Source: Gemmata palustris
GTDB taxonomy: Bacteria > Planctomycetota > Planctomycetia > Gemmatales > Gemmataceae
Direction of reading: 5' to 3'
DNA: 64,000 nucleotides
Assembly (NCBI RefSeq): GCF_017939745.1
Contig: NZ_JAGKQQ010000001.1
Coordinates: 5,084,001-5,148,000, forward strand
Shown: positions 7,746-48,386 of the stretch, in pieces
Position numbering within the stretch: the stretch's first letter is position 1
Layout of the letters: each line of letters begins with the position of its first letter
Notes under the pieces: generated by a model
Told to the model about the DNA's origin: nothing
Database searches by the model: none
Seen by the model: only the letters and a program-made list of their open reading frames with translations
Program-made: the position numbers and the translations under genes

Positions 7746-8627
7746 TCACGTACCCATGATGTTGTAACCGCAGTCCACATAGAGGATCTGACCGGTCACG
7801 GCGCTGGCGAACGGGCTGCACAGGTAGAGGGTCGCGTTCGCGACCTCTTCCGGCTCGATCGGCCGGCGCAGCGGGGAGTGTTCGGCCGCGTGCGTGATGA
7901 GTTTGTCGAAGTCCGGGTTGATCGCCCGCGCCGCGCGACTCGCGTAGGGGCCGGCGGAGATCAGGTTCACGCGCACGTTCTTGTCGCCCACGAACCACGA
8001 GAGCTGCTTCGCGTCCATCTGGAGCGCGGCCTTGCACGTCCCCATGCCGCCGCCGTAGTGCGGGACCACCCGCTCCCCGGCAACGTAGGTCAGGCCCACC
8101 ACACTCCCACCGCCCGGACGGTTCGCCATGTGCGGGGCCGCCGCCCGAACCATGCTGACGAGCGAGTACGACGACACGCCCATCGCCTCGTGGTACGCCT
8201 TCCGGCTCGTCTCGATCAGCGACTTCTTGATTTCCGAACTGAACGCGATTGAGTGAATGAGAATGTCGATCCCGCCGAACTCGGCCGCGACCGCGTCCAC
8301 GGTGCCCTTGATCGAGTATTCCGGGAACTGGGCGTAGCGGCGGTTGGTGCGGACCTCTTCCGGCACGTCGGCCATCGTGTCGTAGCTCGCGTCGCACGGG
8401 AACAGCTTCGCCGGCTTGAACTCGCTCCCGTCCGGGAGCAGGCGCGATTCCCGGTCCATGTCGCGGGTGAGAACGCCCTCAACGATCCCCATCACGCGCG
8501 GGTGGCACGCGAGCACGACCGTGGCCCCGGCCGCCTGGAGCGTCTTCGCGATGTACCACGCGAAGCTGATGTTGTCGCCGACACCGGAAACGAGTGCGAC
8601 TTTGCCGGAGAGATCGATGGGAAGCAT
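7746..8627 (-). CDS. fabI: Enoyl-[acyl-carrier-protein] reductase (NADH), plant-type FabI
   Basis: 293 aa SDR enzyme that reduces enoyl-ACP in the last step of each type II fatty-acid elongation cycle. It has the ENR form of the Rossmann start, LSGKVALVSGVGDNISFAWYIAKTL, and the active site reads PHYGGGMGTCKAAL, a Tyr-x7-Lys spacing with the GGGM insert of plant and apicomplexan ENR; E. coli FabI has Tyr-x6-Lys. A long insert near residues 40-90 (DMDRESRLLPDGSEFKPAKL) also matches the plant-type group. The end IEPEEVANATLYLCSPFASAVTGQILYVDCGYNIMG is intact. Start set at MLPIDLSGK. It stands alone between unrelated genes. Confidence 0.95.
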   Translation of the reverse strand: MLPIDLSGKVALVSGVGDNISFAWYIAKTLQAAGATVVLACHPRVMGIVEGVLTRDMDRESRLLPDGSEFKPAKLFPCDASYDTMADVPEEVRTNRRYAQFPEYSIKGTVDAVAAEFGGIDILIHSIAFSSEIKKSLIETSRKAYHEAMGVSSYSLVSMVRAAAPHMANRPGGGSVVGLTYVAGERVVPHYGGGMGTCKAALQMDAKQLSWFVGDKNVRVNLISAGPYASRAARAINPDFDKLITHAAEHSPLRRPIEPEEVANATLYLCSPFASAVTGQILYVDCGYNIMGT

Positions 8628-8768
8628 GGGAACCTCGGAAAATGACACGGCACGCGGACCGTTCTTGTCCGCGTGCCGTTTTATTGATCCGGTTCCGCTA
8701 CGGCTTCCGCTCCCGACCTGACACGCTCGGGCGCCGAGCCCAAGTACAAGCCGCGCCGAAACGGTCGC

Positions 8769-9815
8769 TTATCGCCAGCGGAAGATGCGGAGCGCGAGCG
8801 CGAAACTGATGCCGCCCCACAAAGTGAGAACCAAGAGCGGGTACGGGAGCGCCTCCCAACCCGCGCCGTCGTTCATCACCGCGCGCAGGCCGTCGTTCAA
8901 CGCGGTGAGTGGGAGGGCCTGAACGAACGGTTGCATCCCTTCTGGAAACCGCGCCGCGGAGAAAAACACACCCGACAGTATGTACATCGGGAGCATGACC
9001 GCGTTCACCAGCCCCGCGACCGTTTCCATCGTGCGTGCGCGCGAACCGATGAGTAACCCCAGCCCGGCGAACCCGGCTCCCCCGATCGCGACGAGCGCGA
9101 GAAAAACGAGCGGGTTCCCGCGCACGCGGATGTCAAACACGAGATGTGTGATCCCGAGCAAAAGCCCGATATCGATGAACGTGAAGATGAGCCGACTCAA
9201 CATCATACTCAGCAGAAAATCGGACCGGCGCATCGGCGTCGCCTGGAAGCGCTTCAGGAGCTTCCGCACGCGCAAGTCGCCGACCGCGAAGCCCACACCG
9301 AACAGCCCACCCCCAAGCAAGTTCATGCCGAGCAAGCCCGGAATCAGGAAGTCGATGTAGCGCCCGCCCGGCTCGGCCACAACGGTTTCGGTCGGGAGCG
9401 CCTGATTCGGGTGCGCGGACCGCAACAGGGCACGGTCCGCGGCGTTGCGCGCGAGCACACTTTCGGAACGAGTCTCATTAAACAGGTACTCGTGCCCGGC
9501 CGCGGTTCCCGGGCGCGGAACGACGACCACGTCGGTTTTCGACGTGCGGAGCCGCTTGCGGCTGGTCGCGTCGTCGTTGAACGCGACTTTGAGGCCCGGA
9601 TCGGCCCCGAGCTTCTCGCGCAGCGCCTCGGCCGCGCCGGGGTTCTCCGGGTCGAACAGGATGTCCACATTCGAGGCGGGTACGGGCTTCTCGCTGAACG
9701 CCATCCCCAGTATGCACGCGAGGATCAGCGGGAACCCGTATACCCAGAAGAGCGCGGCCGGCTCGCGGTAGAACTCGCGGAACCGGGCCAGCGTCAGTTG
9801 CGAGAGTGGAGACAT
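8769..9815 (-). CDS. ABC-2 type exporter permease
   Basis: 348 aa. One N-terminal TM helix (ALFWVYGFPLILACILGMAF) precedes a ~130-residue extracytoplasmic domain, then five further hydrophobic segments including GLLGMNLLGGGLFGVGFAVGDLRVRKLLKRFQATPMRRSDFLLS, the ABC-2 signature of NatB/DrrB-like permeases. It is co-directional with and 3' of the ATPase gene at 9934-10878, its obvious partner. The ATG at MSPLSQ is chosen over a GTG six codons upstream. Substrate cannot be read from the sequence; drugs, lipids or peptides are typical for this group. Confidence 0.9.
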   Translation of the reverse strand: MSPLSQLTLARFREFYREPAALFWVYGFPLILACILGMAFSEKPVPASNVDILFDPENPGAAEALREKLGADPGLKVAFNDDATSRKRLRTSKTDVVVVPRPGTAAGHEYLFNETRSESVLARNAADRALLRSAHPNQALPTETVVAEPGGRYIDFLIPGLLGMNLLGGGLFGVGFAVGDLRVRKLLKRFQATPMRRSDFLLSMMLSRLIFTFIDIGLLLGITHLVFDIRVRGNPLVFLALVAIGGAGFAGLGLLIGSRARTMETVAGLVNAVMLPMYILSGVFFSAARFPEGMQPFVQALPLTALNDGLRAVMNDGAGWEALPYPLLVLTLWGGISFALALRIFRWR

Positions 9816-9850
9816 AATTCGGTCCCAAGTCACATGTCGTAAAGTCGTAA

Positions 9851-9882
9851 AGTCGAAGACTTGATGGATTCAGTCTTCGACT
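9851..9882. terminator. 11-bp perfect hairpin between ABC genes
   Basis: AGTCGAAGACT (9851-9861) and AGTCTTCGACT (9872-9882) form an 11-bp stem with a 10-nt loop, directly after the ATPase gene and before the permease. No U-tract is present on either strand, so it may attenuate read-through or protect the upstream mRNA rather than terminate fully. Confidence 0.5.
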
Positions 9883-9933
9883 TCGCGGCGTTCGACTTTC
9901 GGATATTACGGCTTATTGCAGGCGCGCGACGAG

Positions 9934-10878
9934 CTATTCGGCGTCGCGCAGGTGGCGCCCGGTGAGTGTCACGAACACGTCTTCGAGGGTCGCGGTGCGC
10001 GTGGTTAGCCCCGCGATCTTGACTCCCGCGGCGCGCACGAGGTCGAGTAGCGCCGGCAGCGCGCGGTGCGGCTCACCGGCTGTGAGCGTGATGCGATCGC
10101 CTTCTTCGCGCACCGAGTTCACGGTAGGAAGGGCGCTGAGTTCGGCGGACTGGGGGCGCGACGTGCTGGTCGGATCGATGTCGAGATCGATAACGTGCTC
10201 GCCGCCGACACGCGCGATCAGTTCCGCGGGCGTGCCGAGCGCGATCACCTTCCCGTGATCGATCACCGCGACGCGGTCGCACAACCGCTCGGCTTCGTCC
10301 ATGTAGTGCGTGGTGATAACGACCGTGCGCCCGCGGTCCTTCAGGGTGCGAATCACGTCCCAGAGCTGGCGCCGGGATTGCGGATCGAGGCCGGTCGTCG
10401 GCTCGTCGAGGAAGAGCAATTCCGGGTCGCCGACGAGCGCGGTCGCGACCGCGAGGCGCTGGCGCTGGCCGCCGGAGAGTTTGTCGACGTAGGCGTTGAC
10501 CTTTTCTTCGAGGCTGACGCGCCCGATGGCCTCATCCGGCGTGATGCCGATCGCGTAGAACGACCGGAACAGCGTGACCGTTTCGCGCACCGTGAGCTTG
10601 TCGGAGAGGCGCGTTTCCTGGAGCGAGATCCCGATCTTGTTGCGGATCTCGGTGTCGTTCGTGCCCCACTTCAGCCCGAGCACTTCCACCTCGCCCGCGG
10701 TCGGGTCGAGTAGCCCCTCGATGATTTCGAGGGTGGTGGTCTTCCCGGCCCCGTTGGGACCGAGGAGCCCGAAGCACTCGCCGACGTTCACCTCTAAATC
10801 GAGACCGCGCACGGCCTCGACCGGGGGTCGAGCGGGGTACGTCTTCACGAGACCGCGGACGCGAATGGCAGGGGTCAT
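9934..10878 (-). CDS. ABC transporter ATP-binding protein (export type)
   Basis: 314 aa NatA/CcmA-like ATPase. Walker A GPNGAGKTTT, Q-loop SLQE, ABC signature LSGGQRQRL, Walker B ELLFLDEPTTGLD and the switch region TTHYMDEAE are all intact, and the ~75-residue C-terminal extension typical of drug/lipid exporter ATPases is present. It lies upstream of the permease at 8769-9815 on the same strand and should energise it. Confidence 0.95.
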   Translation of the reverse strand: MTPAIRVRGLVKTYPARPPVEAVRGLDLEVNVGECFGLLGPNGAGKTTTLEIIEGLLDPTAGEVEVLGLKWGTNDTEIRNKIGISLQETRLSDKLTVRETVTLFRSFYAIGITPDEAIGRVSLEEKVNAYVDKLSGGQRQRLAVATALVGDPELLFLDEPTTGLDPQSRRQLWDVIRTLKDRGRTVVITTHYMDEAERLCDRVAVIDHGKVIALGTPAELIARVGGEHVIDLDIDPTSTSRPQSAELSALPTVNSVREEGDRITLTAGEPHRALPALLDLVRAAGVKIAGLTTRTATLEDVFVTLTGRHLRDAE

Positions 10879-10999
10879 ACGTTCAGTTTTAGGAAAACGG
10901 AAACGGAATGGTCACTGTTCCGGGCGCGAGAAATGTAACACTGGCGCCGAACCCATCCGGGCCGGCGACCGACACAGACACCGCAGCACACAATTTGGT

Positions 11000-11842
11000 T
11001 CACAGCAATCCGCGGCGCATTAGACACGCGCAATCCATCCCCCACGCGACGCCGATGTGAAGCGCGGCGCCGAGCCAGACCGACCGCGTCACGAGGCTCA
11101 TGAACCCGAGCACGACGCCCGCGATGATCGACGCGGTCGCTTCCGGCATGGGCTTACCAAAGTGAATGAGGACGTAGGGCACGACCGAGACGAACACCGC
11201 GTACATGCCGAACCGGTGCTTGGTACCGTGGATGATGAACCCGCGGAAGAAGAACTCCAGACTCACGAACTGTGCGGCGTAGGCGAGTTCCCATTTCCAC
11301 AGATCCTCCCGAACGTGCTCGGGCGACCAGAACCGCAGAAACGGGTACGTTTGTTGGAACCGCTCCTCGGCGGAGCACACCCACACGAGCGGAGCCATGA
11401 CCAGCACGAACAACACGTACAGCGGCCACGCATTCAGAACGCCGCGCACTTTCAGCCCGTAATCGGCCGGTCGTGCGCGGAACACGAGTCTCAGGACCAA
11501 CAGCGGAATGATTGCGTAGGTGAGCACCGAGACGCCCGCCCACCACAAGCGGCCCGCGAACTGGTCGCGGCCCCATTTGCAGAGCAGTATTTCGACCTCG
11601 GCGGCGGAATTCGGCCCGCCGAATGTAGACGCCACAAACCGGGCGGCCCCGAGTACCTGAGTCGGGTTCGCGGTATATTGCTGGAGTGTGAGACAAATCG
11701 CGGCAGTGAGCAGAACGGCGGGGGTCTTCCAGTCGAGCTTCCGACCCTCGTCGGAAAGTCGGTACGCGAGCGATTCCGCTTCGACCCGACGGAGCGGTTC
11801 GCCGAACCACGTTTGCCAAACGTGCAGCAACAGTTTGGTCAT
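11000..11842 (-). CDS. CPBP-family intramembrane protease-like protein
   Basis: 280 aa with about six membrane segments. The conserved glutamate/arginine motif of CPBP (Rce1/CAAX-like) proteases appears as SLEFFFRGF, motif 2 as VLIHFGKPMPEA and a third His as GAALHIGVAW. The canonical first motif is EExxxR; here the first Glu of the pair is Leu, so catalysis is likely but not certain. It stands alone on the minus strand after the ABC operon. Confidence 0.85.
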   Translation of the reverse strand: MTKLLLHVWQTWFGEPLRRVEAESLAYRLSDEGRKLDWKTPAVLLTAAICLTLQQYTANPTQVLGAARFVASTFGGPNSAAEVEILLCKWGRDQFAGRLWWAGVSVLTYAIIPLLVLRLVFRARPADYGLKVRGVLNAWPLYVLFVLVMAPLVWVCSAEERFQQTYPFLRFWSPEHVREDLWKWELAYAAQFVSLEFFFRGFIIHGTKHRFGMYAVFVSVVPYVLIHFGKPMPEATASIIAGVVLGFMSLVTRSVWLGAALHIGVAWGMDCACLMRRGLL

Positions 11843-11918
11843 CGGTCCGAATCACCGCGGAGAACGAACGAAAGCGTCTGCGAAAGTGTACCGGCTCGCT
11901 AATGGATGAGGAAGAGGA

Positions 11919-12593
11919 CTACTCCTTGCCGAGCACGAGATCCACGACCCAGCACCCGCGCACGTGCGGCCCCGGTCCGCGGCAGTGGTCGAGCACATCG
12001 GCGCTGTCGCACCCGGCGTCCTGGAGCGCGTCGGCCAGGATCGGCATCGCGTTGAAGTCGCGCCACTCGTACATATGCGAAGCGATTGCGACCGCGGTAG
12101 AAGTGCGCCACTCCGGGGTGAAGGCGACCGAGCGGAACGGGTTCCCGAAGATATCGCGAACCAGATGAGCGAGCGCCGCCGCTTCGCCTTTCCGGCCACC
12201 CGCTCCAACCGCGGCGAGCACTTCGGTGACGACACTTTTGGCATACTCATTTGGACGACACGCTTTGGCAGCAGCGTTAGCAGCGTGCAGTTCTGCCTCC
12301 AGTTTCACACTCCGATTGCGGCTGAATCGTGCATCGCAATACACAGTGACTCCGAAGGCTTCGCGGTATGCAACGGCGAGTTCGTCAGCTTTTACCACAC
12401 CGTCTGCGTAATCCTCAGTCGTTCGCAGCGCGTGTCGACTGGAGATGTCAACGAGCAGATCCAAGTGCCGACGGCAGCACGCGACGCCGAATAGGCGACT
12501 GCGGCGCTCGGGCAGTCGGTTTCGACTGGCGCCGCGTATGAATGTTAGCATTGCAGACGGCCCTTCGCACGCCAGCCATTCCGCTTCGGTCAT
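11919..12593 (-). CDS. Paralogous family protein of unknown function (Gemmata type)
   Basis: 224 aa soluble protein. It begins MTEAEWLACEGPSAMLTFIRG, then SRLFGVACCRRHLDLLVD, and ends with NPFRSVAFTPEWRTSTAVAIASHMYEWRDFNAMPILADALQDAGCDSADVLDHCRGPGPHVRGCWVVDLVLGKE-like blocks. This layout is one I recognise as a large paralog family in Gemmata-like genomes with no known role. It sits immediately left of the integrated element, so it was probably next to the DUF72 gene before integration. Confidence 0.8.
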   Translation of the reverse strand: MTEAEWLACEGPSAMLTFIRGASRNRLPERRSRLFGVACCRRHLDLLVDISSRHALRTTEDYADGVVKADELAVAYREAFGVTVYCDARFSRNRSVKLEAELHAANAAAKACRPNEYAKSVVTEVLAAVGAGGRKGEAAALAHLVRDIFGNPFRSVAFTPEWRTSTAVAIASHMYEWRDFNAMPILADALQDAGCDSADVLDHCRGPGPHVRGCWVVDLVLGKE

Positions 12594-12643
12594 CGGTCGC
12601 TCCCTGGAACCGCTCCCAGCATGACTGATCCGCGGCCACGAGT

Positions 12644-12688
12644 CTACTCGTCGAACAAGCTCGGTGGTTGCGGCGGGTCGATCACGCG
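12644..12688. other. Putative left attachment site
   Basis: The first ~40 bp (CTACTCGTCGAACAA, then a diverged stretch, then GGGTCGATCAC) match 27526-27565 with four substitutions. Both copies are the last codons of a leftward gene and encode a xVIDPPQPPxLFDE tail, here of the recombinase and there of the DUF72 gene. This is where one junction of the element with the chromosome is expected. The exact crossover cannot be fixed from sequence alone. Confidence 0.65.
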
Positions 12689-14425
12689 AACGGCGGGCGC
12701 GATTTCTTTCAGGATGATGCAGAGTCGTTCGGCGTTGGTGATGGCCTGAATCCCCTCTCGGTTGACAAGATTGGAAGTCATCCAGCCGGCTTCGTTCAGA
12801 TACAGCAATCCGCGGGCAAACAGAGATTGTTTGTTCTTGCCTTCTTGCTTGTACGTAAAGAAAACTTCCACGCGATCCAGGAGCGCGCGGAGCAGTTCCG
12901 ACACTACCGCGGGTTCGGCCCGTGTCACGGCTTCATCCAGCCTCGTGATGAGCGATATCAGGCGCTCAACGCGCTCGCCCGTGGGCGCGGTCGCAACGGC
13001 AGCGGCCTTCACCGTGGCCAGTTCGGAGCGGGCCTTGTCGCGATCGTCGGTGAGGGTCTTCAGCCGGTTTCGCACATCGACCATTGCCGCTTCCGGCAAG
13101 TCGTCTTCCATGCGTTCCACGAGCTTACCGATTCGTCGGTCCAAGTCGCTCACCCGGGCTTCCAGTTCGTCCGTTCGATCGGGCGATGTGGCTTCTCCCT
13201 CTTGGCGCTGGATCTCGGCCCGCAGCAGCGCCACGGACTCTGGCGCGGTGAACTTGTCGGCTAACTTCCGCACTATAGCCCGAAGCATCTGCGCATCATT
13301 AACCGTGTTGCGACCGCATCCCGAGGCGGTGCCGTGCGTGTGGTAGTTGGCGCACGTGTAAATCCTGTATTTGTGCGACTTCACCCGTTGCGTTTCGGAG
13401 ACCATCCGGCGACCGCACGCGGCACATATCAACAAGCCAGAAAGCACGAACGGCGCGGTCTTCCGCGGTGACTTGCGCTTCTGGTTCGCGGCGAGCCGCA
13501 CTTGAACCCTGTCGAACGTCTCACGGTCCACGAGCGCTGGGTAAGCGTTGGGAACGGTGATCCAATCCGCCTCGGCCTTTGGCTGTCCGGAGATGAGCTT
13601 TCGCCTCTTGGATTTTACCACCACCGATCCGGCGAACTCAGCGTAATGTGCCCGTCCGAAGATGGCGTCTCCAAGATAGAGAGGATTCCGCAGTACCTTC
13701 GAGATGGTCGCGGGCAACCATCGCTCTTTGCCCTTCGGTGAGTTAACGCCGCGCTCGTGGAGCTTCTCGACAAGCCCCCACATGCTGATATCTGTGGTGG
13801 CGTAAGTCGCGAACATCCACTTCAAATGTTCCGCCTCGGGCGGGTGCGGCACGAGTTTCCCGCTCGTCCGCTCTTTACGGCCCTGCGCGACAGGGTCCGG
13901 TCGGTTGACCGTGTACCCGAAAGGCGGCTTCCCACCCAACCAGTGCCCTTTTCGGGCGAAATCCTTCTTCCCACGGAGTGACGCTTGTGAAAGGTCGCGG
14001 CTGTACTTGTGCGCTCCGTATTCTTGCTTCATCGCGAACATCATGCGGTCGTTCGGTTCGTTGAAGTCAACCCAGCCGTCAGCTTGGTTGAACATCAAGG
14101 AAACGCCAACGTCCCGCAGTTCGTCCACGTAACGACTGGTCTTGACGGAATCGACCCGCCCAAAGCGCGCCTGCTCCCAGCACACAATAGCTTCGATCGG
14201 CTCACCGAGGCGGGCTTGTTCCTTGCAGAACGCAAGCATCTGCTGGAAGCCGGAGCGTGTCTTCGTTTTCAGCCCGGACACGCTCTGGTCTTCAAACTCG
14301 CGGACGATCACAACGTCTTCGCGGGCCGCGGCCTCGGTCGCCCACTGGCGCTGTTGGGCGATACTCTCGCCTACCTCACCAACGTCGTCGTTGCTCTTTC
14401 GGCCGTAGAACACTGCGCGGATCAT
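12644..14425 (-). CDS. Large serine recombinase (integrase)
   Basis: 593 aa. The N-terminal resolvase domain starts IRAVFYGRKSNDD and has the nucleophile region GESIAQQRQWA (an Ser after the family's E-S-I), VREFEDQSVSG and the VCWEQARFGR helix. The recombinase domain follows (KPPFGYTVN, TISKVLRNPLYLGDAIFGR), then a zinc ribbon LSGLLICAACGRRMV...YTCANYHTHGTASGC and a coiled coil (about residues 410-480). The last 11 residues, DPPQPPSLFDE, copy the end of the DUF72 protein at the other edge of the element, so the gene's 3' end overlaps the attachment site. ATG chosen; a GTG one codon upstream is possible. Confidence 0.95.
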   Translation of the reverse strand: MIRAVFYGRKSNDDVGEVGESIAQQRQWATEAAAREDVVIVREFEDQSVSGLKTKTRSGFQQMLAFCKEQARLGEPIEAIVCWEQARFGRVDSVKTSRYVDELRDVGVSLMFNQADGWVDFNEPNDRMMFAMKQEYGAHKYSRDLSQASLRGKKDFARKGHWLGGKPPFGYTVNRPDPVAQGRKERTSGKLVPHPPEAEHLKWMFATYATTDISMWGLVEKLHERGVNSPKGKERWLPATISKVLRNPLYLGDAIFGRAHYAEFAGSVVVKSKRRKLISGQPKAEADWITVPNAYPALVDRETFDRVQVRLAANQKRKSPRKTAPFVLSGLLICAACGRRMVSETQRVKSHKYRIYTCANYHTHGTASGCGRNTVNDAQMLRAIVRKLADKFTAPESVALLRAEIQRQEGEATSPDRTDELEARVSDLDRRIGKLVERMEDDLPEAAMVDVRNRLKTLTDDRDKARSELATVKAAAVATAPTGERVERLISLITRLDEAVTRAEPAVVSELLRALLDRVEVFFTYKQEGKNKQSLFARGLLYLNEAGWMTSNLVNREGIQAITNAERLCIILKEIAPAVRVIDPPQPPSLFDE

Positions 14426-39617: not shown

Positions 39618-39994
39618 GCACCGTCTCATCAGCTCCATCGCCGCACACAGCTACGAGCCTCGGCTAACATTGGCTAACATTTTCGGTCCGCCCAATTGTT
39701 AGTCAATCGCCGCAAATCATTTACAGTAAAAGCCTTACTAGCAGCCAACACTGACCACATTGAAGGGGTTTGTTAGCCCCGGCTGCGCTCCGTGATTCTG
39801 CCTTCAATGCCCGCACAAACCCGTTTGGATGCTGGCAATCGGGCAGTTTACATATTTACACTATTCTACACTCGCCGCGCGAGAAAATAAAGACATAATC
39901 CGCGCGTGTCGCGTGCCCGCCCGCAGCACGAATTCAACAACACCGCCGAACTGTGGTAGAACAGGAGCGTATCGCCGCACGTCGCAGGGAATCG
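39618..39994. other. Gene-free, AT-richer stretch before the kinase genes
   Basis: 377 bp. GGCTAACATT is repeated in tandem (about 39662-39682). CATTGAAGGGGTTTGT (about 39758) and ACAAACCC plus CCTTCAATG further right can pair to form a larger folded region. TTTACA/TATTTACACTATT-type boxes around 39846-39870 may be a promoter. No ORF supported. Confidence 0.4.
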
Positions 39995-41836
39995 ATGAGT
40001 ACGCTACCCGAACACCCCTACCAGGAGGGGACGAAGCCGGCCAACGGACCGCCCGCGTGGACCAACGCGGACGCGGTCCCGGCGCGCTTCGGCGATTTCG
40101 AGATCGTCTCCAAACTCGGCCAGGGCTCCTTCGGGCAAGTCTTCCTCGCGCGCCAAGTGTCGCTCGAACGCAACGTTGCGCTGAAAGTAATTGATGGCGA
40201 ACCGGCCGGGCACAACGAGGGCCAGTTGCTCGCGGGCCTGGAACACGATCACATCGTGAAGGTGTACTCCGCGTTCCTGGACCCCCCGAGCGGGCTGAGC
40301 GGGCTGTGCCTCCAGTACGTGCCCGGCGCGGACCTCGGGGTGCTCATTCGCCACATCTACGAGGGCGGGCGCGTCCCGGAATCGGGGCGGGCGCTGCTCA
40401 AGGCGCTCGACCAGTTGCGCCGCGGAGATCCGGGCTTCGACCCGGCCGCGCTCCGGGACCGCGAAGCGCTCGCGGCCGACGATTTCCCGCAAGCGGTGTG
40501 TCGGCTCGGGGGCCGGATGGCCGAAGCGCTCGCGTTCGCCCACGCGCACGGCATCCTGCACTGCGACATCAAGCCCGGGAACATTCTGCTCACGCCCTAC
40601 GGCCGACCGATGCTCGCCGACTTCAACGTGGCGTTCGATCGCAAGCGGCACCGCTCCGAGGACACGCGATACGGGGGTACGCTCGCGTACATGGCCCCCG
40701 AGTACCGCGCCGTGATGCTCAACCTGCCCGGTGGGAAGGCCGACGAGCAGTGCGACATCTATTCGCTCGGCGTGGTGCTGTACGAACTCGCGACGGGCAC
40801 GCGCCCGACCCGGACGAGCGATTCGTCCGAGACGCGGGAAACGGTGGTCCCGGGCACCGTGCCCGCGCGTGCGCCCCTGCCCAACGTGCGCCCGTCACCC
40901 GATGCACTGGACCGCGTGCCGCGTGAACTGGCCGCGGTGATTTGCCGCGCGATCGACCCCGAGCCGGTCAACCGGTACCAGACCGGCACGGAACTCGCGA
41001 ACGCACTGGCGAGCGCGGGGCAGTTATTGACGGCCCGCCGCGCGCTCCCCGCGCCGTCGCCCCTCGGCCGCTGGGCGACCGCGAACCCGATTCGCGCGCT
41101 CGCGGTGGCCGGCATCTTCCCGCACGTCGTCGCGTCCGTCGTGCAGATCGGCTACAACACGGTCAAAATCCAACTGGTCGGGCACCAAGAATTTGTCTTC
41201 CTGTGCCTCGTCATTGCCTACAACCTCTTTGCCTACCCCGTTTTGGGCGGCACCGCGCTGTACCTGTTCCGGCAAGTCAAGCACCGGCTCCCGAAGGTGC
41301 CCGCGATGCCCGGCCCGGAGCTCGACACGTTCCGCGGCCGGGTGTGCCAACTGTGCTGGCGCGCGGCGGCGCTGGGCGCGATCGGGTGGCTCCCCGGCGG
41401 GCTGATCTTCCCGCTCGTCATCGATCTCTTTGCCGGCCCGATTTCGTGGCAAACCTACGCGCACTACGTGATCTCGTTCACCCTCGGGGGGCTCATCGGC
41501 GTGGTGTTCAGTTACCTGAGCATCGCCTACGTGGTGCTCCGCGCGCTGCTCCCACAACTGGGGAACCCGGACACGTATACGCCCGCGAAGGCCTGGGACG
41601 AGATACGCCCGCTCACGACCCCGTTCGGGGCGATGGTGATGCTAGCGAGCGGCGTCCCCCTGGTAGGCGCGGTGCTGCTGTTGACGCTCGCGGACACCGC
41701 GTTCACGTTCGGCTTCCGGGTGCTAGTCGCGGGCCTGATCGGTGCGGGCGTCGCGGGTGTTGGGCTGGCGGAGCGTATCGTCCGCCGGTTGCGCCAACTC
41801 GCCGCGGTCTGGCAGAAGGATGTGGAAGTGCGGTGA
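39995..41836 (+). CDS. Ser/Thr protein kinase with polytopic C-terminus
   Basis: 613 aa. The kinase domain (about residues 30-315) has the G-loop GQGSFGQV, VAL-K in ALKVIDGE, catalytic HCDIKPGN, DFN (for DFG) in LADFNVAF and GTLAYMAPE. The C-terminal ~270 residues contain about five TM helices (FPHVVASVVQIGYNTVKIQL, FLCLVIAYNLFAYPVLGG, LGAIGWLPGGLIFPLVIDLF and others). Start taken at MSTLPEHPYQEG. DFG-Phe/Gly is replaced by DFN, but the rest of the active site is kept. It probably reports a membrane or cell-wall signal. Confidence 0.92.
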   Translation: MSTLPEHPYQEGTKPANGPPAWTNADAVPARFGDFEIVSKLGQGSFGQVFLARQVSLERNVALKVIDGEPAGHNEGQLLAGLEHDHIVKVYSAFLDPPSGLSGLCLQYVPGADLGVLIRHIYEGGRVPESGRALLKALDQLRRGDPGFDPAALRDREALAADDFPQAVCRLGGRMAEALAFAHAHGILHCDIKPGNILLTPYGRPMLADFNVAFDRKRHRSEDTRYGGTLAYMAPEYRAVMLNLPGGKADEQCDIYSLGVVLYELATGTRPTRTSDSSETRETVVPGTVPARAPLPNVRPSPDALDRVPRELAAVICRAIDPEPVNRYQTGTELANALASAGQLLTARRALPAPSPLGRWATANPIRALAVAGIFPHVVASVVQIGYNTVKIQLVGHQEFVFLCLVIAYNLFAYPVLGGTALYLFRQVKHRLPKVPAMPGPELDTFRGRVCQLCWRAAALGAIGWLPGGLIFPLVIDLFAGPISWQTYAHYVISFTLGGLIGVVFSYLSIAYVVLRALLPQLGNPDTYTPAKAWDEIRPLTTPFGAMVMLASGVPLVGAVLLLTLADTAFTFGFRVLVAGLIGAGVAGVGLAERIVRRLRQLAAVWQKDVEVR

Positions 41837-42030: not shown

Positions 42031-45000
42031 ATGTCCGTCCGTCCCGAAGCCCAGGTCGAGCCGATACCCGGTTACAAACTCCTCGATCGCCTCGGCGCGG
42101 GCGGGTTCGGAGAGGTTTGGCGCTGCGAAGCGCCCGGCGGGATCTTCAAAGCTGTAAAAATCATCCACGGCGACCTGCGGTCCAAAGACAGCGACCTCGT
42201 CCGCTACGCCGAACAGGAACTCAAGTCCCTCAAGCGCGTGAAGCAGGTCCGGCACCCGTACCTCCTCGCGCTCGACCGCTTCGACATCATCGAAGGCCGG
42301 CTCATGATCGTCATGGAGCTGGCCGACTGCAACCTCTGGGACCGGTTCCGCGCGTGCCGCGAGGCGGGGTTAATCGGCATCCCGCGCGACGAGCTGCTCC
42401 AGTACATGTCCGAGATCGCCGAGGTGCTGGACCTGTTCAACGACCAGTTCCAGCTCCAGCACCTGGACATCAAACCGCAGAACCTGTTCCTGCTCTACAA
42501 CCACGTCAAGGTGGCCGACTTCGGACAGGTCAAAGACCTGCAGGGGCTGATGGCCCAGGTCACCGGCGGCATCACGCCGGTGTACGCGGCCCCCGAAACG
42601 TTCGACGGCGTCATTACTCGTTACTGCGACCAGTACAGCCTCGCGTGCGTGTACCAGGAGTTGCTGACCGGGGCGCGCCCGTTCGACGGCAGCAGCATGA
42701 GTCAACTGCTCATGCAGCACTTGAACCTGCCACCGCACCTGGACCCGAGCCCGCCCGCGGACCGCCCCGCACTGGCTCGCGCGCTCTCCAAGAAGCCGGA
42801 CGACCGGTGGCCGAGCGTCTCCGCGTTCGTGCGCAACTTGATGGGCGGACCGCCCCTGAGCGGGATCTCGCAACCGATACGGTTCAGCGCGTCCGAAGTG
42901 GACACGCCCAATCTGATTAGCATGCCGGCCGCGCCCGGTTCCGTGTTCATGTCGGTGGCCGACGACACGCCCCCGCGCGAAACCTACGGCCCAATATTCA
43001 CGCCGGCGCCGCCGGAACTGTCCGGCGACGGCCCGCTCCAACCGGCACTGGTGCTCGGGCTCGGGAACGCCGGGCTGCGCGTCATTCAGCGGTTGCGGTT
43101 CGACCTCACCGAGCGCTACGGGCACGCCGGTTTGACGCCGGCGCTCCGCACGCTGTTCATCGACACCGACGCCGACGCCCTCGATGATGCGACCCGGGCG
43201 CGCGCCGCGGACCGGCTCGCGCAACTCGGGCCGGACGAGGTGTACGCGGCCAAACTGAACCGCGCCGGGCACTACATGAAGCCGCGGTTCAACGGGCGCA
43301 GCCTCACCGAGGGCTGGTTCGACCCGCAACTGCTCTACAAGCTCCCGCGCACGCCCCAAACCCTGGGCGTGCGGTCGTTCGGTCGGCTCGCGTTCCTCGA
43401 CCACTACCGCACGCTGATGACGAAGGTGCAGGCCGACCTCGACGCGGCCGTGGCGCCCGATGCGATACTCCTCACCGAGGCCCGCACCGGGCTGAAGCGG
43501 CGCACGAACCGCCCCCGCGTGTACCTGGTCAGCAGTTTGGCCGGCGGAACCGGCGGCGGGATGTTCCTCGACCTCGCATACGCGGTGCGCAGCCGGCTCA
43601 AGCGCATGGGGTACGACCGCCCCGAAATCATCGGGCTCTTCGTCCTGCCGCCCGCGGACGCGACGCTCACGCACCCCCAAGCGCTGGGGAACACGTTCGC
43701 CGCGCTCACCGAACTGAACCACTACAGCCGCCCCGACACCGTGTTCACCGCGCACTTTGACGAGCGGAGCGGGTACGTCAAAGAACAGGACGCGCCGTTC
43801 ACCCGGTGCTACCTGCTGCCGGGATCGGCGTCCGGGAACGTGCCGCAATCCGGGTCCAGTATCAGCCCGCCGCCGCGCCGCACCCCGCTGAGCATCCCGA
43901 ACCCCGGCTCGCGCCCGCGGCTCGGGTCCGGGGGCGTCCAGAAGCCCGGTTCGCGCATCATCACGCCCGGCCCCCAGCGCACCCCGGACCCGAGCGCCGC
44001 GTCCGCCGCGCTCAAGCCGTTCGGCGACGCGGCCGAGCGCATCCGGCTGGATCTCTTCTCTCCGATCGGGCGCGGCGCGGACGAGGCCCGCGCTGCCGAA
44101 GAATTCACCGAGCACCCCGGACCGGTTACGGTTTCGGCGTTCGGCGTGGCGACGTTCGATTGGCCCCGCGCCGAAGTGATAAGCCGAACCGCCGCGTCCG
44201 TCGGGCGCGCGATCCTGCGGCGCTGGGCGGCCCCCGACCTGAAGCGCGTCCGCGAAGTGATGCCCGGCATCGCCGCGAGCCGGTGGACCCAACTGGGGCT
44301 CGACCCCGACACCATTCTCGGCCGGCTCCAGCGCGCCGCGGACCAATCGGCCGGCGGCCGGGTGGACGCACTGGTGGAATCGGTCACCGAGCCGCTCGTC
44401 CCGCGCGGGTGGCTCAACCGGCTCCCGGAACCGACCCAAGTCAACCTCGCCCTCGACGGGCTGAACCGCGTGCTCGGTCCGCCGGCGTCTTCCCTGAAGC
44501 GCCCGCCGACCGCACTCGAAGAGGGGGTGGCGCGGGCCGCCGGGGACGCGGGCGCCGCGTTCGCCCTGGACCTGCGCACGCTCGCACCGGTGCTCGTGGA
44601 CGACGCGGAGTTCCGGCTCGCCGGGACCGAAGAGCTGTTCCGCCAGTTCCTCGCCACCACGGACCGCCTCATCGACCGGTACACGCAACTCGCGGTCGAA
44701 CTCGATTCCAAGGCCGTTACCGGGTTCGAGTGCCTCTCGCGGTACGCGCACTTCCAGAAGGGCATGTGGAAGCCCACGGCCGCGGAACTGACGGACGCGC
44801 TGCGCCAGTACCCGCGCGCCCGGTTCCAGGCGCTCACCTTCCGACAACTGGTCACCACTTACCAGACCGTGCGCGACGTGCTCGCGGGCCAGGTCGCCGA
44901 CGTCGCGGTGGCCCGGCAGCGCATGGCGGCCGCCAGCGCGAGCGTGCCCGACGAGCCGCCCGAACCGCCCGCGTCGCTCCGCCGGCTCATGCCGCCCGGG

Positions 45001-45603
45001 TGCCCGACCATCGGGGACGCGGTCGACCGGTTCCTGAAGGTGCTCACCGACGCGGACCTGGTCGAGATCGACCGGCGCGTGCAGTCGGTCCTCGAGCCGG
45101 AAACGGGCGGGCTGTTCCAGGTCTGTCTGAACTCGTCGGCCGGGGTCGAGGGCGTGATCGCGGTGGTGTTTGAAGAGACCCGCGCGCACCTGGACCAGCG
45201 GCTCGGCGAGGTCGGGTTGGCGTCCATGTTCGCGGAGCGGTTCCGCACGCCGCAGCAGGCGGAGCGGGCCATCGAACAGGCGTACCAGGAAGCGGAACCG
45301 GCGTGGACCGGGTACGGCCCGTGGGCCGCGTCGGAAGTGGCGGTGCTCACGTGCCCCGGCGGGTCATCCGGCGAAGCGCTGCGCGAACTGGCGCGGCGCG
45401 CGATCCCGATCGCCGGGCTCCCGATCGCGGACAGTTGCGACGACCTCACGATCTACCGCGAGTGGAACGCGGTCCCGCTGGCCGCGCTCCCGCACCTCGG
45501 CCCGGCCGCGGCCGCGGCTTACGGGGCGATGCCCGAAACGAACCAGTGTTCGCCCCACACCCGCCTCGACGTAACCACCTGGCTGGACGTGGACGCACTG
45601 TAA
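42031..45603 (+). CDS. Ser/Thr kinase fused to tubulin-like GTPase domain
   Basis: 1190 aa. Residues 14-275 are a kinase: GAGGFGEV (22-29), lysine in AVKII, HLDIKPQN, ADFGQVKD and the APE-like AAPETFDGV. A Pro-rich linker follows. From about residue 345 there is a tubulin/FtsZ-like domain of the Tubulin_2 type: ALVLGLGNAGLRVIQRLRFDL near the start, FIDTDADAL, and the nucleotide signature LAGGTGGGMFLDLAYAVR at about 503-520. A ~600-residue C-terminal region is mostly helical with a Ser/Pro/Arg-rich insert (about 605-665). It sits 194 bp after another kinase gene on the same strand. Expected to link phosphorylation with a polymer-forming GTPase. Confidence 0.88.
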   Translation: MSVRPEAQVEPIPGYKLLDRLGAGGFGEVWRCEAPGGIFKAVKIIHGDLRSKDSDLVRYAEQELKSLKRVKQVRHPYLLALDRFDIIEGRLMIVMELADCNLWDRFRACREAGLIGIPRDELLQYMSEIAEVLDLFNDQFQLQHLDIKPQNLFLLYNHVKVADFGQVKDLQGLMAQVTGGITPVYAAPETFDGVITRYCDQYSLACVYQELLTGARPFDGSSMSQLLMQHLNLPPHLDPSPPADRPALARALSKKPDDRWPSVSAFVRNLMGGPPLSGISQPIRFSASEVDTPNLISMPAAPGSVFMSVADDTPPRETYGPIFTPAPPELSGDGPLQPALVLGLGNAGLRVIQRLRFDLTERYGHAGLTPALRTLFIDTDADALDDATRARAADRLAQLGPDEVYAAKLNRAGHYMKPRFNGRSLTEGWFDPQLLYKLPRTPQTLGVRSFGRLAFLDHYRTLMTKVQADLDAAVAPDAILLTEARTGLKRRTNRPRVYLVSSLAGGTGGGMFLDLAYAVRSRLKRMGYDRPEIIGLFVLPPADATLTHPQALGNTFAALTELNHYSRPDTVFTAHFDERSGYVKEQDAPFTRCYLLPGSASGNVPQSGSSISPPPRRTPLSIPNPGSRPRLGSGGVQKPGSRIITPGPQRTPDPSAASAALKPFGDAAERIRLDLFSPIGRGADEARAAEEFTEHPGPVTVSAFGVATFDWPRAEVISRTAASVGRAILRRWAAPDLKRVREVMPGIAASRWTQLGLDPDTILGRLQRAADQSAGGRVDALVESVTEPLVPRGWLNRLPEPTQVNLALDGLNRVLGPPASSLKRPPTALEEGVARAAGDAGAAFALDLRTLAPVLVDDAEFRLAGTEELFRQFLATTDRLIDRYTQLAVELDSKAVTGFECLSRYAHFQKGMWKPTAAELTDALRQYPRARFQALTFRQLVTTYQTVRDVLAGQVADVAVARQRMAAASASVPDEPPEPPASLRRLMPPGCPTIGDAVDRFLKVLTDADLVEIDRRVQSVLEPETGGLFQVCLNSSAGVEGVIAVVFEETRAHLDQRLGEVGLASMFAERFRTPQQAERAIEQAYQEAEPAWTGYGPWAASEVAVLTCPGGSSGEALRELARRAIPIAGLPIADSCDDLTIYREWNAVPLAALPHLGPAAAAAYGAMPETNQCSPHTRLDVTTWLDVDAL

Positions 45604-45623: not shown

Positions 45624-48386
45624 TCACCCCAGAGTGACCTCGATGCCGGCCATGTCCTCCTGCCCGAGGCCCAGCGCGATGCGGGCGAACACCTCGTCGC
45701 GGGTCTTGTTCCGCATCTCGTAGTCCTTCAGGAACCACCAGAACCGGTACTCTACGACCTTGACGTGCCCCTTCTGGCTGTACCGCACCACGGTCACGCC
45801 GTTGTCGGCCGAGACGTTCTTGCACTGGCTCATCGCGCCGCGGAGCACGGTGACGACCTTCCCCGCGTCCTTGTCCGTGCTCACGGTCACCGCGATCGCG
45901 TCATAGGTTTCACCGCCCCGAGACAGGTTCTCCACGGTCAGCTCGGTCACCTTTCGGTTGGGCACGCTGACCACCAGCCCGTTCGTGTTCTTGAGCGCGG
46001 TCGAGCGCCACGTGAGCCCGACGACGCGGGCCGGGTCGCCGGTTCCCAGGCGCACGACGTCCCCCACCTTGAACCGGCGCTCGGCGAATATCACCACCGA
46101 ACCGAGCACGTCGGCAATCATCGGTCGCGCCGCAAGCGCGATTGCAAGAGCGCCGATCGCCAGTGCGATCACGAGCGCGGTTACATCGAAGCCGAGAGTG
46201 CTGAGAACGAGCGCGACGGCGGCGATCCACGTTCCCGCCTTCAGCACCCCGCGCAGCGCGGCGAGCACCGGCGACGGGCTGCCGGCCTCGCTGCTACCGC
46301 CTCGGATCTTCCGGCCCAAAACGAACAGCAGCACGTGCGGGAGGAGTAACGCACCGAGCAGGATGATGCCGATCTTGATGCCGGTCTCGCGCATCCCGCG
46401 GATTCGGGCCGCGCGCAATTCCGCTCGCGCTTTGCCGATCTCACCGCCCGCAGCCGGGAGTTTGGTCTGCTCCGTGACCTTGCTCGCCTCGGTCGCGCTG
46501 TTGCCCGTGAGTGCTTCGACGCGCCGGGCGTTCGCGAGTGCGGCCGCGTTCAATTTGGCCACTTCATCGCGGTAGACATCCTCCTCGACTTTCAGCCCGT
46601 TTGGAGCGATCCGCGACCGGAGCCAGTCGTCCCACTTCCGCGCGCCTTCGGAGGTCGTGACGCGCTTCTCCAGAACCGTCCGCAATTTCGCGATGTCGGC
46701 GGCCTCGTGCCGGCCGAGATCGATCAAGCTCTCCAGTGCTTCCTTTTGCCGCTTCAGGATATCGGCCCGTTCGTCGTGATCGATGAGTTCCCGGTAGTCC
46801 GCAGTAAGGAGTTCGGCGGCGTCTGCACCGGCCTTCGATCGATCGAAGGCCAGGAGCCAGTCCCACTCGCCGGTATCTTTGTTCACGCGCTCGGTGGTGC
46901 GCTGGTCGAGGCGCTTCTGTTCGGCCTCCGGCCGGTCCTTGCGCGCGGTGGCGTAGTCGCCCGCGAGCTTCTTCAAATCGACGAGCAAGTTCAGCCGCTC
47001 GTTCACCCGCGCGAGCAGGTGCGTCGTCAGCGACTTGATGTTCTCGGTTTCTGGGTCGGGCTTGCGGAGCTGCTCGCGCTCCTGTCGGAGTTGGCTGATC
47101 GCGAGCGCAACGGCCCGCGCCTCAATATCGAACGGGGCACGGTCGCCCCCGTCGAATCCGCCAGAAACTTTGGCCGCATCGAGGTCCCCGCGCCCGACTC
47201 GGCGTTCAGTCTCCGTCGCGAGCGCCGTCACCTGAGCCACGAGCCGCCGAACGTCATCGAGCGTCGCCAAGTACGCGACCGCTCGCTTCTCCAGTTCGTC
47301 GAGCGCCGAGACCAGCGCGTTCACCTTCTCCTCGCGTTCGTCCAGGTTTCGCACCCGAGCCGCGAGGTGCTGTTGAACGCCCGCGAGCCGCCGGGCCGTT
47401 CGCTCCAGCGGCGCGAGCGCCTCGAACGGCTCCGTGTCGACCGGCGGGGGCGGTTCTTTGAGCGCGCCGAGCGCGGCCCGGGCCTCGGCCGCAACCCCGG
47501 ACGCTTTCTGGTAATCGCCCGCATCCCCGGCAATCGCGCCCGTCTTCTCAGTAAGTGATTTGCGCGACTTGGCGAACTCGTCCGCGAGTTGCGCCGGCGT
47601 CATCACGCACGCCTGCTCATCGAACTTGAATGACGCGAGTGTGTCCGCCTGCGCGCCCTTCAGCGCGTCGAGCTTTACCGCAGCCGCGTCGGACGCAGCG
47701 CGCGCGGACGCGCGTTGCTTTTCGACCTCCGCTGAATCGCTTTTCGCTTTATCGAGAGCCGTTTGCACGTCAGCGCCGAGGGTCTTGAGTCGCGCCGCGG
47801 CGTCATCGATCGACTTTGCCCCCGCCGCATCAGGCCGTTTGCCGGCGCCCGCCTTCGCCGCTAACGGCGCCGCCGTGCGCAGGGTCCAGAGGTGATCGTC
47901 CGCAGCGCGCGCGGCACGGCCGAATTCCGCGCACGCGGTCGCGAGTGCGGCCAAAGCGTCCTTCCACGCTTCGAGGTGTTTGACGCGGGTCGCGTGGTAG
48001 TCGACCACGGCTTGCTCCGCCTTGAGAGCGGCTTCAACATCGGCCGCACGCAGCACGAGCGGAACGGGCGCGGGGGGCTTGAGATCATCGAGCCGCTGCC
48101 GGGCTTTACCCGCTTCGGCCATCTGAGCGGTGAATCGGTGGTGCGCCAATTCGTAGGCGCCCTTCCGCGCGATCCACTCCTGCGCCAACTGTTCCACGAA
48201 CGCGACCACTTCGGCCGGCGCGCGGCCCGCGAGCTTCGCCTCCATTTCCTCGCGCGCCTGCGAACGATCGGTGGAAGCGGACTTGGGTGGCGGAGCCTTT
48301 TCGTCCGATCGACCGGAGCCGGGAAGTAACAGGCACACGGCGCCGAGGAGCACAGCGCCGGCGGAGAGGACCCGAGTGTGGAGCAT
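45624..48386 (-). CDS. Large MscS-family mechanosensitive channel
   Basis: 920 aa. Signal peptide (MLHTRVLSAGAVLLGAVCLLLPGSG), then ~620 residues of mostly coiled-coil periplasmic domain (for example DLKPPAPVPLVLRAADVEAALKAEQA, LDEREEKVNALVSALDELEKRAVAYL). TM helices start near residue 670 (IGIILLGALLLPHVLLFVLG). The channel core follows: ALVIALAIGALAIALAARPMIADVLGSVVIFAERRFKVGDVVRL, VVGLTWRSTALKNTNGLVVSVPNRKVTELTVENLS, with a C-terminal alpha-beta domain. The architecture is like E. coli MscK/YbiO giants. It converges with the kinase-tubulin gene. Confidence 0.9.
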   Translation of the reverse strand: MLHTRVLSAGAVLLGAVCLLLPGSGRSDEKAPPPKSASTDRSQAREEMEAKLAGRAPAEVVAFVEQLAQEWIARKGAYELAHHRFTAQMAEAGKARQRLDDLKPPAPVPLVLRAADVEAALKAEQAVVDYHATRVKHLEAWKDALAALATACAEFGRAARAADDHLWTLRTAAPLAAKAGAGKRPDAAGAKSIDDAAARLKTLGADVQTALDKAKSDSAEVEKQRASARAASDAAAVKLDALKGAQADTLASFKFDEQACVMTPAQLADEFAKSRKSLTEKTGAIAGDAGDYQKASGVAAEARAALGALKEPPPPVDTEPFEALAPLERTARRLAGVQQHLAARVRNLDEREEKVNALVSALDELEKRAVAYLATLDDVRRLVAQVTALATETERRVGRGDLDAAKVSGGFDGGDRAPFDIEARAVALAISQLRQEREQLRKPDPETENIKSLTTHLLARVNERLNLLVDLKKLAGDYATARKDRPEAEQKRLDQRTTERVNKDTGEWDWLLAFDRSKAGADAAELLTADYRELIDHDERADILKRQKEALESLIDLGRHEAADIAKLRTVLEKRVTTSEGARKWDDWLRSRIAPNGLKVEEDVYRDEVAKLNAAALANARRVEALTGNSATEASKVTEQTKLPAAGGEIGKARAELRAARIRGMRETGIKIGIILLGALLLPHVLLFVLGRKIRGGSSEAGSPSPVLAALRGVLKAGTWIAAVALVLSTLGFDVTALVIALAIGALAIALAARPMIADVLGSVVIFAERRFKVGDVVRLGTGDPARVVGLTWRSTALKNTNGLVVSVPNRKVTELTVENLSRGGETYDAIAVTVSTDKDAGKVVTVLRGAMSQCKNVSADNGVTVVRYSQKGHVKVVEYRFWWFLKDYEMRNKTRDEVFARIALGLGQEDMAGIEVTLG

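Follow-up and report, generated by a model that had tools for sequence, protein, structure and literature searches.

Domain architecture of the kinase-tubulin gene

A stretch of 64,000 nucleotides from Gemmata palustris (contig NZ_JAGKQQ010000001.1, positions 5,084,001 to 5,148,000), hereafter the window, was analysed around an open reading frame (ORF) that codes from ATG to stop for a protein of 1190 amino acids, in which a Ser/Thr kinase is joined to a tubulin/FtsZ-like domain. An earlier note, made from the sequence alone, had described this fusion in one polypeptide, and the coordinates, Pfam matches and motifs confirmed it (Table 1). The Pkinase profile matched residues 15-227 (E 1.2e-26; 94.1 bits, cut-off 31.7), and Tubulin_2 (PF13809, the FtsZl1 family) matched residues 340-679 (E 1.9e-37) with 129.8 bits, well above the cut-off of 27. 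The plain Tubulin profile (PF00091) stayed below its cut-off (13.2 vs 33 bits) and FtsZ_C (PF12327) was absent among the Pfam matches of the protein. The kinase has the catalytic Lys and the HxDxKPxN, DFG and APE motifs of the Hanks type, and it aligned over its full length with solved kinases, best with 7naa_A (E 3.7e-24). Both nucleotide loops, T1 and T4, are present in the window copy. The gene is real, looks functional and belongs to a known family. The source genome comprises 9.23 Mb in 3 contigs and holds three Tubulin_2 genes. The closest named relative found was that of Gemmata sp. IIL30 (L138) with 86-87% identity across the tubulin and helical part.

Table 1. Features of the kinase-tubulin gene and of two adjacent genes in the window.
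Feature	Positions	Strand	Evidence
Whole gene, kinase-Tubulin_2 fusion, paralogue class A, 1190 aa	42031..45603	+	ORF, Pfam, tree
Hanks-type Ser/Thr kinase domain, residues 15-270; HLDIKPQN 144, ADFG 162, AAPE 186	42073..42840	+	Pfam, motifs
Variable linker, residues 271-330	42841..43020	+	dN/dS 0.35-0.48 vs three relatives
Tubulin-like GTPase (N-terminal) domain, residues 336-600	43036..43830	+	Pfam Tubulin_2, AlphaFold2 model, fold match
T1-type loop GLGNAG, residues 343-348	43057..43074	+	Alignment
T4 signature loop GGTGGGM, residues 505-511	43543..43563	+	Alignment
Disordered proline-rich loop, residues 605-650	43843..43980	+	pLDDT <50, model residues 275-320
H7/T7/H8/S7/H9-like elements, residues 654-733	43990..44229	+	Model; element names inferred from order
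Helical/coiled-coil domain, ~residues 734-1096, read as insertion in second tubulin domain	44230..45318	+	Model
Tubulin second domain resumes, S8-H10-S9-S10-H11-like, residues 1097-1190	45319..45600	+	Model secondary structure, VIA alignments to model residue 840-860; names inferred from order
Neighbouring Ser/Thr kinase gene (context only)	39953..41836	+	Pkinase E 2.1e-34
Convergent MscS-type mechanosensitive channel gene (context only)	45624..48386	-	Pfam; kept in 3/6 same-genus class A loci

The fusion itself has already been published. According to the accessible parts of the sources, Makarova and Koonin described the FtsZl1 family in 2010 and reported four planctomycete members with an extra N-terminal kinase domain (PMC2875224), the fusion of Tubulin_2 with a kinase was restated later (PMC9871819), and a survey of 2024 listed the tubulin-like domain as the most frequent of the partners that occur only in the cytoplasmic kinases of planctomycetes (PMC11032199); the architecture is therefore not new. 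The window protein shares with FtsZl1 the order of an FtsZ-like domain followed by a coiled-coil and helical part, besides the N-terminal kinase of the four planctomycete proteins. It has the domain pair and the phylum in common with the kinases of the survey, which are classed there as cytoplasmic, whereas the accessible part of that survey says nothing of paralogue classes, a fold or neighbouring genes. No prior account of the fold reading, the paralogue classes or the scpA pairing presented below was found in the literature searched, and none of an scpA link or an FtsZ-like insertion model, with most subscription journals and bioRxiv outside its reach.

Predicted fold of the tubulin and helical part

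The structure of residues 331-1190 was predicted with AlphaFold2 from an alignment of 50 sequences (49 of 77 related loci and the window). Partial sequences (L137, L147, L154, L162, L178, L182), the distant loci L187-L207 and one locus with a stop (L168) were left out. The model reached a predicted local distance difference test score (pLDDT) of 87.8 and a predicted TM-score (pTM) of 0.81. Its best match in Foldseek was TubZ (2xka_D, E 3.7e-4), followed by gamma-tubulin, and among viral structures it was a phage tubulin (E 7.4e-3). VIA aligned 306 residues with CetZ (3zid_A, Z 22.8, root-mean-square deviation (rmsd) 3.3, 16% identity, model range 6-840). For tubulins, 325-343 residues were aligned (Z 21-23, rmsd 3.5-3.9), with the model covered up to residue 860 against chain residues 1 to ~419-433. 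Taken over all VIA rows, the model range ran from 1-7 to 840/860 and the chain range up to 345-433, at 8-16% identity. The GTPase part of a tubulin has ~205 residues. With 325-343 aligned residues, the aligned stretch must therefore take in H7 and much of the second domain as well.

A long coiled-coil and helical region with predicted helices of 30, 45 and 54 residues comes after the GTPase domain, and the final strands and helix of the model (772-841) follow ~360 helical residues (404-766). In the simplest reading, the predicted tubulin fold is complete and a helical domain of ~360 residues has been inserted between H9-like and S8-like elements; H7, H9 and S8 are named here from the order of the elements and the alignment ranges. 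The two features that mark the tubulin/FtsZ superfamily, a GTPase domain and a second domain joined to it by H7, are both found in the predicted model. Pfam and the model, with tubulins, CetZ and TubZ as its best matches, thus agree on the tubulin-like fold which the earlier note had supposed. The window protein differs from CetZ, tubulin and TubZ in its low identity, the predicted helical insertion, the N-terminal kinase, a disordered loop before H7 and a T7 motif that was not recognised. An insertion of this size in the second domain of a tubulin would be unusual.

Modelled alone, the helical insertion reached a pLDDT of 90.0 and a pTM of 0.82. It gave no clear fold match in Foldseek (best E 0.24) or in VIA (best Z 7.0, none ≥8). 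Since such VIA scores lie in the chance range for helical bundles, no function was read from the insertion and no known fold was excluded. A sequence profile of the tubulin and helical part gave nothing significant against solved structures, the best hit being the ZorA coiled coil (E 0.02). In NCBIfam, two fusions matched only kinase models, far below cut-off, and a kinase-less relative matched none.

In the accessible text of the FtsZl1 paper, its authors could not identify H7 or a second domain, and they offered a reviewer three options, the first being that the elements are present but strongly diverged (PMC2875224). The H7-like and second-domain elements of the present model favour this option. 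The model thereby bears on what that text left unsettled, namely whether the widespread FtsZl1 proteins own the parts needed for filaments.

Paralogue classes and nucleotide loops

A tree of 48 proteins, built with a quick method and supported by the Shimodaira-Hasegawa-like approximate likelihood ratio test (SH-aLRT) only, was weak at its deepest forks (74) and resolved three classes within the family Gemmataceae with a support of 98-99 each: class A, to which the window gene belongs, has 19 rows, class B has 14 and class C has 9. Of the remaining six rows, two form a long-branched pair within a single genus and four come from other families. Each class spans several genera of the family, and genes of classes A and B often stand in tandem. 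The T4 pattern GGTG[GS]G is kept in 15/19 class A and 13/14 class B rows and in none of the nine class C rows; one T4 residue is missing in all nine of the latter and in the two long-branched rows. The kinase motifs of class C were seen intact in seven rows, and the other two carry a kinase match. Class C offers a natural control in bacteria without an FtsZ_C match.

Some single copies are worth recording. The class C copy of the source genome (L096, C2:30000-49900) sits on a separate contig of 0.9 Mb, possibly a second replicon beside the contig of 8.3 Mb. The L116 copy (G411:C265) belongs to class B. The kinase-tubulin gene of G417 (L214:4447-7872) is split in its kinase part into two ORFs by one in-frame TAG, as in a decaying gene or by an assembly error.

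Conservation and selection

When the window gene was compared with L118, the kinase had a ratio of non-synonymous to synonymous substitution rates (dN/dS) of 0.066 and the tubulin GTPase part one of 0.21; the values were 0.12 in the H7-S7 part, 0.18 in the helical part, 0.32 in the last part, 0.35 in the linker and 0.42 in the disordered loop. The kinase had the lowest value of the seven segments against all three relatives compared (0.066, 0.065 and 0.113; tubulin GTPase part 0.21, 0.19 and 0.17). L118 and L138 gave near-identical values and may be one species; against L131, the kinase was still lowest with a smaller gap (0.11 vs 0.17). The kinase motifs were intact in 37/37 kinase-bearing rows, while a 38th row (L117) is cut by a contig end. 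In all 60 loci with both matches, the identity of the kinase match exceeded that of the tubulin match. Because the kinase motifs are kept even where the GTP loop is altered, and dN/dS is lowest and identity higher in the kinase, kinase output looks like the common denominator of the paralogues.

Distribution of the fusion and of FtsZ

Tubulin_2 was found in 82/95 genomes of the family and in 60 of the 66 good ones (≥90% complete); 68 of the 82 have two to four copies and 14 a single one. It was found in 89/102 genomes of the order and in 22 of a sample of 392 genomes of the phylum, 19 of them over the cut-off. FtsZ_C matched none of the 95 family genomes, whereas the same search was positive in 13/14 control genomes. 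Six good family genomes have neither Tubulin_2 nor FtsZ_C, and a second search of four of these at E ≤ 0.1 did not retrieve Tubulin_2 either.

Among the 77 related loci in named genomes, 60 have a kinase match that precedes the tubulin match by ~1 kb on one strand; one continuous frame was confirmed for a subset of the proteins. Fifty-eight of the 60 are titled planctomycetes, and the others are L176 ('Bacteroidales') and L186 ('Bacterium'). The 17 loci without an upstream kinase belong by title to cyanobacteria (14), Acidobacteria, Blastocatellia and Armatimonadetes. Given this distribution, the intact frame in relatives and the purifying selection, the fusion is not due to chance. It was also present in four loci from other families of the same taxonomic class (L105, L106, L107, L109), while in three loci farther away in the phylum (L110, L111, L112) the tubulin part had no kinase match. 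Within the sample examined, the fusion thus looks like a trait of the taxonomic class and not of the whole phylum. A simple gene caller, with the window as its training set, returned no kinase-tubulin protein for L104, L108, L113, L114, L115 and L124 and hardly any genes for L213 and L220, the last two of which were read from plain ORFs; none of the eight was scored as an absence.

Two of these records are unusual. L110, from a distant phylum member, has two kinase-less Tubulin_2 genes in tandem (7951-13558), the second of which covers just the latter half of the profile and is possibly a pseudo-tubulin partner. The contig of L176 bears a Gemmataceae-type gene and is probably a mislabelled or contaminated record.

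Pairing with scpA

Little is conserved around class A genes save scpA (SMC_ScpA), which codes for the condensin kleisin. It lies directly downstream of a kinase-tubulin gene on the same strand in at least 14 of the 76 genomes that hold both families among the 95, and these 14 come from 11 genera. Adjacency was read by eye among the coordinates listed; the count is a lower bound, and related genomes in it are not independent. Twelve of the loci were read in sequence, and two (G478 and G481) from coordinates only. In the twelve, the spacing ranged from an overlap to 77 nt in ten loci and was 194 nt and 864 nt in one each. In nine loci the copy next to scpA belongs to class A and in one (L214) to class B, and L213 and L220 have the long-branched form there. 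An ancestral order B-A-scpA would agree with this.

Possible role of the kinase-tubulin protein

The explanation tentatively preferred here, although it is held with somewhat less than even confidence, is that of a scaffold whose assembly is gated by GTP and which clusters a kinase, with chromosome organisation by SMC-ScpAB as the leading candidate process. The protein would be a soluble scaffold kinase whose tubulin-like part may bind GTP and self-associate, perhaps together with its class B paralogue. Self-association would bring the N-terminal kinase domains together and might so allow their mutual activation and the phosphorylation of bound partners. The helical insertion could serve as a docking or spacing element. 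A scaffold is preferred because copies whose GTP loop is one residue short still retain the kinase, and condensin is the leading candidate since in many relatives a kinase-tubulin gene and scpA adjoin each other on one strand, mostly with little space between them. Together with the three classes, this pairing provides a concrete hypothesis on the role of kinase-tubulin proteins.

On a bolder and distinctly unlikely reading, A and B would build a two-component, kinase-bearing tubulin-like polymer with the helical arm inserted in the second domain of each subunit, and C would be a nucleotide-free pseudo-tubulin. The polymer would work with SMC-ScpAB to organise or move chromosomes in a family without an FtsZ_C match, and its assembly would trigger phosphorylation. 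The tandem order B-A with scpA directly behind, the GTP loops, which most A and B rows retain and the C rows have altered, and the complete predicted tubulin fold support such a polymer and do not prove it.

Several observations weigh against the scaffold explanation. In the genome of the window itself, scpA lies 2.3 Mb away from the gene, and no pairing was seen in seven members of the order outside the family among the matches listed. Nine class B loci share a neighbouring gene for 4HFCP synthase and six loci, mostly of class C, one of FtsH type, both with no obvious link to the kinase-tubulin protein; kept gene order alone is therefore weak evidence. A conserved N-x-D-x-x-D motif of the catalytic T7 loop was not recognised in the family alignment; the stretch [DE]-L-x-[ST]-x-x-G-R, found roughly at this position in most A and B rows, is a candidate only. 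The class A row L087 has also lost one T4 residue and three more A rows depart from the pattern. The scores of Foldseek were modest, both the best E-value given above and the TM-scores (0.14-0.22 by query length and 0.26-0.49 by target among the rows listed), the latter owing to the length of the model. Moreover, the six good genomes mentioned above do without the protein, and no assay of a kinase-tubulin protein was found in the literature searched.

The earlier note had suggested a cytoskeletal switch. In such a switch, the kinase would work chiefly in cis, on the tubulin or helical part of its own polypeptide, and so control filament assembly. The physical fusion and the complete tubulin-like predicted fold would suit it, and the joining of a kinase to a tubulin-fold domain stands. 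The terms 'polymer-forming' and 'cytoskeletal switch' go further than the data, given that T7 was not confidently identified and that class C retains its kinase with the shortened GTP loop in all nine rows; the kinase is also more conserved than its supposed substrate. Such a switch is rather unlikely. The note's tie to the odd cell division of this group was weakened by the same six genomes: as they have neither FtsZ_C nor Tubulin_2, division in the family does not need Tubulin_2, and an obligatory substitute for FtsZ was set aside. A replacement of FtsZ in cell division, to which the FtsZ_C-free family with its mostly multiple Tubulin_2 copies might point, is accordingly rated as highly improbable.

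Membrane remodelling, as proposed for FtsZl1 in the accessible text of the 2010 paper (PMC2875224), would have the GTPase assemble at membranes, together with partners of the vWA, GTPase and OmpA kinds, under the control of the kinase. Membership in FtsZl1, a vWA gene next to one non-fused relative in the phylum (L112) and the convergent MscS-type channel gene next door in three of six same-genus class A loci are in favour of it. However, the five scanned neighbours of the window gene gave no Pfam match to vWA, OmpA or P-loop GTPase, in which the gene differs from FtsZl1 with its usual partners; what recurs beside such genes in the family is scpA, 4HFCP synthase and FtsH; and the channel gene, present in the window, L085 and L118, is missing in L092, L093 and L121. 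Membrane remodelling is thus considered unlikely. A system for conflict or anti-phage signalling whose sensor assembles is suggested by tubulin-domain proteins in GTPase-centred conflict systems, as given in the accessible text of PMC7159879, and by matches of the kinase to PADLOC kinase models. The PADLOC matches listed (25 of 26) cover the kinase only, though, and the 860-residue tubulin part searched alone matched no known anti-phage system. Defence genes are usually patchier in distribution than these paralogue classes with their spread over several genera, and a role in defence is very unlikely.

Neighbouring genes

The window gene is surrounded by a kinase gene, a transporter gene of the major facilitator superfamily (MFS), the MscS-type channel gene and two further ORFs. 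The second kinase that the earlier note had seen just upstream is real. Its cluster recurs near class A only in L118, a locus of the same genus with one called ORF in between, and in L117 among the loci compared, and in one case (L103) next to a gene of class C. Gemmataceae hold 98-140 kinases according to the accessible part of the survey (PMC11032199). Due to this low recurrence in a family rich in kinases, the neighbouring kinase was set aside as a functional partner.

A gene for an FHA-EAL protein lies beside the kinase-tubulin gene of a relative from another family of the taxonomic class (L106:6167-7357). In the accessible text of the 2010 paper, a reviewer mentioned a diguanylate phosphodiesterase neighbour in Pirellula staleyi (PMC2875224). 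Two non-fused kinases of the source genome (L208:3258-5312 and L209:3414-5387, with 52% and 48% identity) have weak C-terminal PilZ matches of 20.8 and 23.4 bits at a cut-off of 22.5, suggesting a subfamily of kinases that also joins domains of the cyclic di-GMP type.

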